DNA from: Terriglobia bacterium
Lineage (GTDB): Bacteria; Acidobacteriota; Terriglobia; UBA7540
Direction of reading: 5' to 3'
DNA: 36,143 bases
NCBI GenBank assembly: GCA_035712365.1
Contig: DASTAW010000051.1
Span: 1-36,143, forward strand
Made by a program: the position numbers and the translations under genes. Below are positions 31,904 to 35,234 of the stretch, one piece after another. The notes below the pieces were generated by a model. It was given only the letters and a program-made list of their open reading frames with translations, did not search any database and was not told the origin of the DNA. Each line of letters opens with the position of its first letter. The first letter of the stretch is position 1.

Positions 31904-32110
31904 ATGTCAGGCGTATACAAAATCACCGAACTGGTTGGAACTTCACCCGTCAGTTATGCCGAAGCTACCAAAGCCGCCGTCGCCGAAGCTGCCAGGACCG
32001 TCCGCCACATGGACTGGCTTGAAGTGGTCGGCCAGAGCGCCAGGATCAAAGACGGCAAGATCGAGGAGTTTCAGGTGAAAGTCAAGATCGGATTTAAGGT
32101 CGAGCGCTAA
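31904..32110 (+). CDS. Dodecin (flavin-storage protein)
   Basis: The 68-residue protein is a typical dodecin, a dodecameric sequestering protein for flavins in the cytoplasm. Visible are VYKITELVGTSPVSYAEA, AVAEAARTVRHMDWLEVVGQ and GKIEEFQVKVKIGFKVE. The central Trp stacks on the flavin in the family. The ribosome site AAGGAG (31888-31893) fixes the start. It is alone before two small genes on the same strand, and a stem-loop follows its stop. Confidence 0.96.
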   Translation: MSGVYKITELVGTSPVSYAEATKAAVAEAARTVRHMDWLEVVGQSARIKDGKIEEFQVKVKIGFKVER

Positions 32111-32116
32111 CCTCGC

Positions 32117-32153
32117 CAATCTGCCTGGTGCTTGAACGCGCGGAGGCAGATTG
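32117..32153 (+). terminator. Stem-loop after dodecin
   Basis: CAATCTGCCT (32117-32126) pairs perfectly with AGGCAGATTG (32144-32153) around a 17-base loop, starting six bases after the dodecin stop. No T-run follows, so it may be a transcript-stabilising or Rho-assisted hairpin and not a classic terminator. Confidence 0.5.
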
Positions 32154-32437
32154 AAAATGGAATTAACCGGCCGTTCAAAATTACCTGTCCCGCGAGTAAC
32201 AACTCTCACTTCGATGCTGCGTCGGCGCTCCAGGTGCGCCTGCGGAGGACCATAACCTGTGCCAGGCTTACCTCAGCGATTTACCGGCAGGTGTGCGAAT
32301 CCTGTGTGCCTTGGCACGCCGTTTGCTGTAGGTGATTACGTCTGCGGAATTCGAGGTGCGGGGCGTTGCCTTCTGCCCGTTGGGCATCACACGGCCCAGG
32401 GCACAATCCAAACTTCGCGTAGCGTAAGGAGTTTTTT
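32154..32437. other. Hairpin-rich leader before microprotein 1
   Basis: No gene is recognised in this spacer. Short hairpins are dense: GGCGC/GCGCC (32224-32240), GTGCC-TT-GGCAC (32306-32317) and TGCCC-GTT-GGGCA (32374-32386). This could be a structured 5' region of the small gene that starts at 32438, but the stems are short enough to be chance in GC-rich DNA. Confidence 0.3.
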
Positions 32438-32584
32438 ATGTTCCCGCGAACCGAAATTTTTGAAACAAAGATTTACCGCCGCGAAAGGGACCAAGACGTC
32501 CTTTGCCGTTTGACCTACGAAGTGACGCCCTTTCGGGACGGTTTGATGCGATGGTTCCTGGTCGCCATCAAGGAACTCGAATAG
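32438..32584 (+). CDS. 48-residue microprotein, copy 1 (novel paralogous pair)
   Basis: I do not recognise this family. An ATG follows a perfect AAGGAG (32426-32431) with six bases of spacing. The product includes ETKIYRRERDQDVLCRLTYE, then VTPFRDGLMRWFLVAIKELE. It has no signal peptide or membrane span. The middle is strongly basic, with one conserved Cys, and alternating polar/hydrophobic residues suggest a small beta-sheet ending in an amphipathic strand or helix. The gene at 33014 encodes the same protein with 36 of 48 identical residues and mostly synonymous or conservative changes, so both are very likely translated. The gene lies between dodecin and a zinc dehydrogenase. Confidence 0.75.
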   Translation: MFPRTEIFETKIYRRERDQDVLCRLTYEVTPFRDGLMRWFLVAIKELE

Positions 32585-33013
32585 CGTGGGGCGATCAGCG
32601 GACAGGCTGCAATGTTTTCGCCGCTGCCGCACGCTGCCAGGCACGCGCCCAAGCTTCTCACCGCCGCCAGGATTTTTCGCCAATCGGAATAGTTCCATCC
32701 CTTACCGCCGTGTCTCAGCCATTGCTCCAGCCGTCCAGCGCCAGCCAACTGACTCCGAATTGTGCATCTGCCGGGGAGCAAGTGTCAGCATTTGGGGACG
32801 GTTTGTGGGCCATATTACTATTAAGTAAATCGTAATAATTAGATTATCCGTTTTCAATTCTGCGAGATGTGTCAAAGGGCGGGACTTTGGCGTGCCGATT
32901 GCTATTAATCATGCCGGACCCTGAATTCGGGGGGCAGGCACTTTGGGATCGGTCCTGAAGTCCTATGCCTGACCAGCAGCCTGCTCCCCGAAACCCGGCA
33001 ATTAGAGGTTTTC
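32585..33013. other. Spacer between the two microprotein genes
   Basis: No gene is recognised in this 429-bp stretch. A clearly AT-rich patch at 32812-32860 could carry the promoter of the second copy, but no good -35/-10 pair stands out. An inverted repeat at 32926-32992 lies just before the second gene. The two genes do not share their flanks, so only the coding parts are conserved. Confidence 0.35.
32926..32992 (+). repeat. Inverted repeat in the leader of microprotein 2
   Basis: TTCGGGGGGCAGGC (32926-32939) pairs with GCCTGCTCCCCGAA (32979-32992), 13 of 14 positions, across a 39-base loop. The second arm ends 21 bases before the ATG and just ahead of the ribosome site, so folding could influence translation of copy 2. 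Confidence 0.55.
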
Positions 33014-33160
33014 ATGAACCCGAAAACCGACATCGTTGAAACCAGGGTTTATCGCCGCGAACGGAACCAAGACGTTCTCTGCCGATTAACTTACCAGGTG
33101 ACGCCATACCGAGAAGGTCTGTTCCGCTGGTTCCTCGTCGCCATCGAGGAACTGGAATAG
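33014..33160 (+). CDS. 48-residue microprotein, copy 2 (novel paralogous pair)
   Basis: This is the paralogue of the gene at 32438. An ATG follows AGAGG (33004-33008). The product includes ETRVYRRERNQDVLCRLTYQ and VTPYREGLFRWFLVAIEELE. Compared with copy 1, 12 residues differ, mostly R/K, E/D, I/V, D/N and F/Y swaps, and 15 of the 36 identical residues use different codons. The core YRRER.QDVLCRLTY and RWFLVAI.ELE are invariant. No known motif is visible. A weak hairpin follows the stop (33163-33188). Confidence 0.78.
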   Translation: MNPKTDIVETRVYRRERNQDVLCRLTYQVTPYREGLFRWFLVAIEELE

Positions 33161-34342: not shown

Positions 34343-34957
34343 TCAGCGGCTGGCCGTGGGTTGTCCGACGGATTGTCCCTGCTGCATGAGGTTGGTTTTG
34401 AGCTTCAGCTTCTGGCGGGGCTGCAGGGTCACTTGCGTTTCAAACGTCTGGTAGCCCGCAAGTGAGACTTTGATTTCGTGTTTTCCCGGCGTCAGCAGCA
34501 TTCCCTGGCCGGGCCCGTCGAACTGGTCGACGTGTCCTACAAACTGCTTGTCCACAAACACAGCCGCGCGTTTCGGATGTCCGGAGATTTTCACCACCGC
34601 CGTCTGGGTCCCGTACTGGGCAGAGAGATCTTTCTGCATGGCAACCGCCACGATCTGTTTTTGGCCCGGCTCCAGGTTCACTTCCTGGGTAAAGTTCTGG
34701 TAACCATCCTGGCGGACCTCGACCTGATGTTTCCCCGGCAGCAGCAGGATTTTCTTGGATCCCTTCAGCTCCTTCATGTAGCCGACGTATTGGCCGTCAA
34801 TCCACACGCCGGAGCTTTTGGCCGGCTTGTTGGCCGCTTCCAGTTCGATTTGTCCTAAAATCTCGTTCTTTGCCTGAAGTCGCCCGCCCATAAGCATCGG
34901 GGCAAGGACCACGAGACAGGGAACCAATACCTTGACCAGCTTTATTGAAAGCTTCAC
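34343..34957 (-). CDS. Secreted protein with two PEGA domains
   Basis: The 204-residue product has an N-terminal signal segment (KVLVPCLVVLAPMLMGGRLQA) and two PEGA-type beta domains. The first includes GVWIDGQYVGYMKEL, LLLPGKHQVEVRQDGYQNF; the second includes AAVFVDKQFVGHVDQF, LLTPGKHEIKVSLAGYQTF. The PGKH.I.V...GYQ.F pattern is the family mark. PEGA domains are often attached to envelope proteins and their ligand is unknown. The GTG at 34957 is chosen because GGAGGAGG precedes it closely; a TTG at 34978 is less likely. Confidence 0.88.
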   Translation of the reverse strand: MKLSIKLVKVLVPCLVVLAPMLMGGRLQAKNEILGQIELEAANKPAKSSGVWIDGQYVGYMKELKGSKKILLLPGKHQVEVRQDGYQNFTQEVNLEPGQKQIVAVAMQKDLSAQYGTQTAVVKISGHPKRAAVFVDKQFVGHVDQFDGPGQGMLLTPGKHEIKVSLAGYQTFETQVTLQPRQKLKLKTNLMQQGQSVGQPTASR

Positions 34958-35234
34958 AGTCCTCCTCCTTTGGGTCAAAGGACCCGTCTGGCTGATCAGA
35001 GTGCAAGAGACGCGCCAACCTTATCTGTCCGTTTAACTCATTGAAAAGGCGCATGATTTCTGGATTTGGTGGATGTTCTTCGAGGTAAGTTTTACTGCCC
35101 CGCAGGTGAAATTTCCCATAGGGGCTATGCAGGGCAGGCGAGGGGCGGAGCGGGAGGAATCGTCACCGAAGGCGCGAACACTCAGCCTGGAGCTTATGCA
35201 ATCTCGCGCAGCGGAGGGCTATCCCGTCTCCGGT

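Follow-up and report, generated by a model that had tools for sequence, protein, structure and literature searches.

The −24/−12 promoter elements of sigma-54 (RpoN) have the consensus TGGCACGNNNNTTGCW. Example sites and the GG/TGC rule are given in the part of PMC3844500 available to us, and the available part of PMC4551910 describes envelope function as a common association of this sigma factor. A word search of the open-licence literature found no paper dealing with sigma-54 in connection with Acidobacteria or with small proteins. Undescribed families of small proteins are common, yet most of them come without a handle on function. The family analysed here offers several: a testable switch consisting of sigma-54 and an activator, a probable control of one paralogue at the RNA level, a fold predicted with confidence and a relative carried by a phage. 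Through this family the sigma-54 regulon of a soil lineage about which little is known may become accessible as well. The genes are real, sigma-54 control and the leader RNA are likely, and the biochemical role proposed below is tentative.

Coding evidence for two 48-residue ORFs

The window, i.e. the whole stretch of 36,143 nucleotides that was analysed, is contig C51 of the 4.67-Mb draft genome (G000) of a soil Acidobacterium. Its forward strand contains two ORFs of 48 codons, copy 1 at 32438–32584 and copy 2 at 33014–33160, with ribosome sites read from the sequence at 32426–32431 (AAGGAG) and 33004–33008 (AGAGG), respectively. A recount confirmed the first-pass annotation, according to which 36 of the 48 residues are identical and 15 of the 36 codons for shared residues differ synonymously. 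The 32 nucleotide differences between the copies are distributed 10/4/18 over codon positions 1/2/3 (chi-square P 0.0098). Ungapped identity amounts to 78% in the coding sequence, compared with 39% and 28% over the adjoining 100 nt on the upstream and downstream side, respectively, and the similarity ends near the ORF boundaries. Contrary to what had been stated, the flanks are not entirely unlike, as a sigma-54-type site at −126 is common to both copies.

Purifying selection, which had been claimed from the two copies, was borne out by dN/dS ratios of 0.06–0.28 across nine pairs of family genes (Nei-Gojobori; dS exceeded 1 and was near saturation in two of the nine). The separation of silent from replacement changes was strongest in the sense frame (pS 0.27–0.66 versus pN 0.02–0.15) and weaker in one antisense frame (pS 0.22–0.42 versus pN 0.03–0.20). 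Homologues with open frames, a check named in the earlier annotation, turned up in 10 of the 39 genomes that represent the taxonomic family. Because these homologues keep their frames and dN/dS stays between 0.06 and 0.28, the coding reading survives, and we regard it as practically certain from the substitution pattern that both ORFs are coding genes under purifying selection. Overall, the earlier interpretation as selected small proteins is supported. Not included in that annotation were a third gene copy, promoters of the sigma-54 type and the probable, conserved leader RNA.

Distribution and phylogeny of the family

The third copy (copy 3) is more distant, lies on contig C56 of the same genome and adjoins a D-3-phosphoglycerate dehydrogenase gene. 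Among 101 related genomes searched at the protein level, 12 had matches at E 0.1. Seventeen sequences were kept in the family alignment A1, which served as a profile; G014:C334 (partial, E 7e-6), G037 (E 0.07) and G094 (E 0.0075) were left out. The profile matched in 10 of the 39 genomes of the same taxonomic family and in 10 of 40 genomes of the order. Within a sample of the phylum it matched in one of 396 genomes, namely the window's own; here 17 candidates per genome were scored among the matches listed, and absence is softer than in the scan of the 39 genomes. Scanning named genome contigs with the alignment yielded six loci among 21 stretches, all from Acidobacteria or Terriglobia MAGs and one from gp13, and a genome scan with a single sequence as query found none.

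Most members are 47–48 residues long; the phage copy with 55 residues and the second G011 copy with 62 exceed this length. Conserved positions in A1 (copy-2 numbering) are E9, R24, L25, Y27, P31, F40, L41 and E46. Inspection of the sequences by eye revealed no apparent signal peptide or membrane stretch. The microproteins are a lineage-restricted family of about 47–62 residues and apparently cytosolic.

The tree contains a copy-1 clade (support 88/95), in which copy 1 of the window groups with the copy-1 genes of the sister species G001 and G002. Copy 3 falls into a second clade (95/90), and a third clade is divergent (100/97); the copy-2 genes did not come out as a clade. The two copies of the window belong to separate lineages, copy 1 grouping with genes that lie elsewhere in the sister species, and a recent tandem duplication was therefore rejected. 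The description 'tandem pair' holds for the position of the genes but not for their origin.

Sigma-54-type promoters and candidate activator sites

Upstream stretches were scored out of 12 against the consensus, GG and GC being required, and a score of at least 9 within 150 nt upstream was counted as a site. Copy 1 is preceded by TGGCACGCCGTTTGCT at 32312–32327 on the forward strand (12/12; predicted transcription start about 32338) and copy 2 by TGGCGTGCCGATTGCT at 32888–32903 on the same strand (10/12; predicted transcription start about 32914). The copy-1 genes of the window, G001 and G002 all reach 12/12 at −126 to −128, and the copy-2 genes score 10 in the window and 9 and 9 in G001 and G002 at the same place (−126/−127). 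Sites at −48 to −59 were found for copy 3 (9 and 9), the first G011 copy (10), G014 (10), G018 (11) and G021 (11).

Altogether, 12 of 18 family genes carry a site of at least 9/12, compared with 114 of 3278 control windows (3.5%) taken from the same loci with the real sites included. A second control consisted of 296 stretches preceding ORFs of at least 150 aa, 11 of which reached this score, and letter shuffles of the 18 upstream stretches gave a mean of 0.58 sites with a maximum of five. When copies of the same lineage were pooled and G031 and G036 counted once, seven of 12 distinct loci had a site (binomial P 4e-8). No site of at least 9/12 was found for the remaining six genes, i.e. the two G006 copies, the second G011 copy, G031, G036 and the phage copy. 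The rpoN gene is present in 35 of the 39 genomes of the taxonomic family, including G000 (C48:272079-272552, E 1.0e-57), G001 and G002. It was not found in the G018 draft, although the family gene of G018 has an 11/12 site. These results make transcription of most family genes by the sigma-54 polymerase, and hence their induction via an activator, very probable.

The exact extended sigma-54 pattern occurs twice in the 4.67-Mb genome and once for the reversed control, which is barely above background, and the copy-1 promoter is one of these two sites. The other lies 44 nt ahead of an 80-aa cysteine-rich ORF on contig C20 (L087 1230–1472, reverse strand) with a weak MYND-finger match below the Pfam cut-off. 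Further sites were seen before other genes. A PEGA-domain gene on the reverse strand of the window (34343–34978) has a sigma-54-like site at 35002–35017 on that strand, which scores 11/12; the corresponding position in both G001 and G002 scores 9/12. A 208-aa protein that looks secreted (L027 3164–3790, reverse strand; L094) has sites of 12/12 in G001, 11/12 in G000 and 10/12 in G002. For a BON gene no site scoring at least 8 was detected.

Comparison of the three copy-1 orthologues revealed a candidate activator (enhancer) dyad, TTACCTG-N5-CGAGTAA, at 32181–32199 in the window. It precedes the −24 box by 128, 128 and 131 nt, within the range of about 70–150 bp given for activator sites in the available part of PMC3844500. 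The dyad is perfect in G002, deviates at two of 14 positions in the window and at five of 14 in G001 (compared by eye), and eight matches within three mismatches occurred in 246,697 bases. Upstream of the copy-2 promoter, a perfect inverted repeat, TTACTATTAAGTAA, at 32815–32828 is a possible but weak activator site with imperfect counterparts in the alignment of G001 and G002. A search for an activator dyad common to the promoter-bearing loci found none beyond shuffle level. A dyad with at most three of 14 mismatches to the copy-1 candidate is also located at 35091–35109, upstream of the PEGA gene.

A predicted leader RNA of copy 2

Alignment and folding point to a conserved structured leader of copy 2 at 32912–33000 on the forward strand, modelled as a three-way junction with 32 pairs. 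Over 87 aligned columns the leader is 91–95% identical in three species, compared with 44–62% for the DNA upstream. The window sequence folds with −46.4 kcal/mol (z −3.28; none of 200 shuffles was as good). In the consensus, three pairs carry changes in both partners, and all of the 96 cells are paired, versus 31–55% in slid controls. The covariation is suggestive, because its score was reached by 38 of 500 shuffles and the alignment comprises three orthologous sequences from one locus. The predicted transcription start (about 32914) lies two bases inside the first helix (32912–32917), which is within the error of the prediction.

No Rfam family matched over the leader; a CRISPR-repeat match over the copy-1 start, on the opposite strand, had an E value of 1.9 and was below the gathering score. 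In the 39 genomes the leader model identified only the three copy-2 orthologues convincingly, weaker matches (best E 0.004) being taken as chance. Its matches to the reverse strand at the same three sites (17–18 bits) are due to the dyad symmetry there. The model found no such leader at copy 1, and the copy-1 leaders lack a conservation like that of copy 2. A possible upstream mini-ORF of 15 codons, MPDPEFGG(QA or RV)LWDRS, at 32911–32958 on the forward strand is kept in the three species. Since its ATG precedes the predicted transcript start and no ribosome site was seen, we rank RNA structure above a leader peptide. From conservation and folding energy it is probable that the copy-2 mRNA leader folds as a conserved three-way junction and adds a second layer of control.

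Predicted fold and database comparisons

With an input of nine sequences, AlphaFold2 modelled copy 2 as a three-stranded antiparallel sheet (strands 4–14, 19–33 and 36–46) with a pLDDT of 94.6, and a divergent member was likewise three-stranded at a pLDDT of 94.6. The first-pass annotation had recognized no known family in the conserved core, and the searches agree with this. None of the 17 members matched Pfam (at E 10) or PADLOC. NCBIfam gave one sub-threshold match ('YcaR', E 0.03) in one of 17 members, and PHROGs, searched with nine members, two single-member matches (E 0.24 and 0.32), all of which were taken as chance. Membership in a family of these four collections was therefore rejected for want of a significant match. 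As sequence relatives in the PDB only three carbamoyl-phosphate synthase sequences came up, with an 11-position match at E 1.5; they were discarded, and a further PDB search gave none. A word search of the open-licence literature found no description of the family. Judged by these comparisons, the microproteins are a new family of small proteins.

Foldseek found no match at E 0.001 or better in the PDB or BFVD. Among its best matches was the PAS chain 3nja (TM 0.62–0.64, E 0.21–0.34; VIA Z 4.8). Other weak structural neighbours by VIA were phytocystatins (Z 5.1) and single-strand-binding proteins (Z 3.7 and 3.5). The three C-terminal strands of PAS are also called PAC. An origin from PAC found no support in a small hhalign test against five clean PAC segments, which gave a probability of 0.45% with 27 of 200 column shuffles as good.

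Genomic context and a phage-borne member

Synteny is conserved around copies 2 and 3. In three species copy 2 is located between the genes for dodecin and a zinc-type dehydrogenase; Pfam confirmed the dodecin that had been named as a neighbour of the pair. The copy-1 genes occur at three unrelated places in three species, and the region 32110–32744 of the window, which includes copy 1, measures 634 nt against 214 nt for its counterpart in G002 and 46 nt for that in G001. The genes around copy 1 of G001 are scattered in G000 and G002, so that either the gene or its surroundings may have moved. Copy 1 of G001 lies downstream of the BON gene and of the gene for the 208-aa protein, the G000 counterparts of which are on contigs without a family gene.

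A gene for an ECF-type sigma factor lies 35 nt upstream of the second G011 copy on the same strand (L031 10091–11079, reverse strand), and a single receiver-domain gene follows the G014 copy. Other neighbours are a GGDEF gene, PAS kinases and a Ser/Thr kinase in a mix that differs from locus to locus. At two loci (L028 and L035) a sigma-54 activator gene is found about 4.1 and 2.3 kb from the family gene. No transposase was among the neighbours scanned with Pfam. Antisense ORFs overlap several family copies.

The phage-borne member (L057 4950–5114, IMGVR_UViG_3300033977_000098) sits between tail genes and follows a receiver-like ORF at a distance of 7 nt. This ORF has no Pfam match and a weak PDB match to a response regulator (E 5e-4); its best PDB match was to a repeat protein that is unrelated (E 3.5e-9, with no stretch that passed by itself). 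The single IMG/VR contig was the only find of four viral scans, one of which gave none at all, and no members were detected in phage records with copy 1 as query or in plasmid records with copy 2. Possibly, the phage-borne member is a tool acting on host signalling.

Discussion

We propose that the family encodes a sigma-54-induced protein-binding module, probably acting in signalling or stress, with an additional leader control of copy 2; for this explanation as a whole we estimate a probability of roughly 0.55. The lineage-restricted small proteins, coding and under purifying selection, would mostly be transcribed by the sigma-54 polymerase, which would require an enhancer-binding activator. 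Such dependence implies that the genes would be silent until a specific signal arrives and would then be induced. The first approximately 87 nt of the copy-2 mRNA are predicted to fold before the ribosome site and may control mRNA stability or translation. As the copy-1 genes have no such leader, the two paralogues would be controlled differently. No helix covers the sheet in the model, so the bare sheet may act as an oligomer or bind a partner protein. Tentatively, we see an oligomeric or partner-binding protein, most likely serving as an adaptor in signal transduction or a stress response. A signalling role may be indicated by the neighbours, such as the ECF-type sigma gene, the receiver gene and the receiver-like phage ORF, which vary between loci. 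It is speculative, and we think unlikely, that the leader is a new class of cis-regulatory RNA beginning at the sigma-54 start and tuning the microprotein, and that the family is a beta-sheet adaptor which plugs into signalling proteins of the PAS/receiver type and is carried by phage to interfere with host signalling.

The proteins might instead be effectors of envelope or osmotic stress, belonging to a sigma-54 envelope regulon with PEGA and BON or secreted proteins, a cell-surface programme rather than signalling. The PEGA gene of the window has an 11/12 site (9/12 in the sister species) and a similar dyad, the BON and 208-aa genes (the latter with a 12/12 site) lie upstream of copy 1 in G001, and envelope function is a common association of sigma-54 in the available part of PMC4551910. 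However, the microproteins have no apparent signal peptide or membrane stretch, the BON gene lacks a site of at least 8 and the BON and 208-aa counterparts in G000 are separated from any family gene, and we consider this reading rather unlikely. Small basic and aromatic sheets can also be pictured on RNA or DNA, possibly on the copy-2 leader itself in an autoregulatory loop, as R24, Y27 and F40 are invariant or nearly so and single-strand-binding proteins appear among the weak structural matches (Z 3.7 and 3.5). These matches reflect a common arrangement, though, the C-terminal strand ends in acidic residues and the leader was found at the three copy-2 loci only, so we consider nucleic-acid binding improbable.

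The protein-binding module also has to be weighed against a small gene of a mobile or selfish kind, for instance one that served phages as an accessory gene and underwent repeated domestication. The member between phage tail genes, the three unrelated places of the copy-1 genes and the differing lengths around copy 1 (634, 214 and 46 nt) speak for such a gene, but copies 2 and 3 stay in conserved synteny, the scans found a single viral contig and no member in phage records (copy 1 as query) or plasmid records (copy 2 as query), and no transposase was seen among the Pfam-scanned neighbours; we hold this to be quite improbable. That the ORFs are not genes at all, their conservation being that of regulatory DNA or a shadow cast by an ORF on the antisense strand, is scarcely credible. 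Antisense ORFs do overlap several copies, but the similarity of copies 1 and 2 ends near the ORF boundaries and the separation of silent from replacement changes is strongest in the sense frame, and on those pS and pN values an antisense or non-coding origin was rejected.

Among described systems, the locus resembles sigma-54 (RpoN) genes in the TGGCAC-N5-TTGC-type −24/−12 elements before 12 of 18 family genes and in the presence of rpoN; it differs in that the genes driven by the predicted promoters would encode an undescribed family of Acidobacteriota microproteins. Like riboswitches and other cis-regulatory leaders, the copy-2 leader would be a conserved folded 5′ RNA with a junction directly before the ribosome site, but it has no Rfam match and three orthologous examples only. 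The modelled microprotein has a three-stranded antiparallel meander that may correspond to the C-terminal (PAC-like) strands of PAS, whereas the N-terminal half of PAS is missing and the Z score is in the range of common arrangements. A short conserved ORF without a Pfam domain is usual for small-protein families such as those of GMSC (PMC11364881, available in part), which may itself hold these sequences; what is added here is evidence on the promoters, a probable leader RNA and a fold predicted with confidence.
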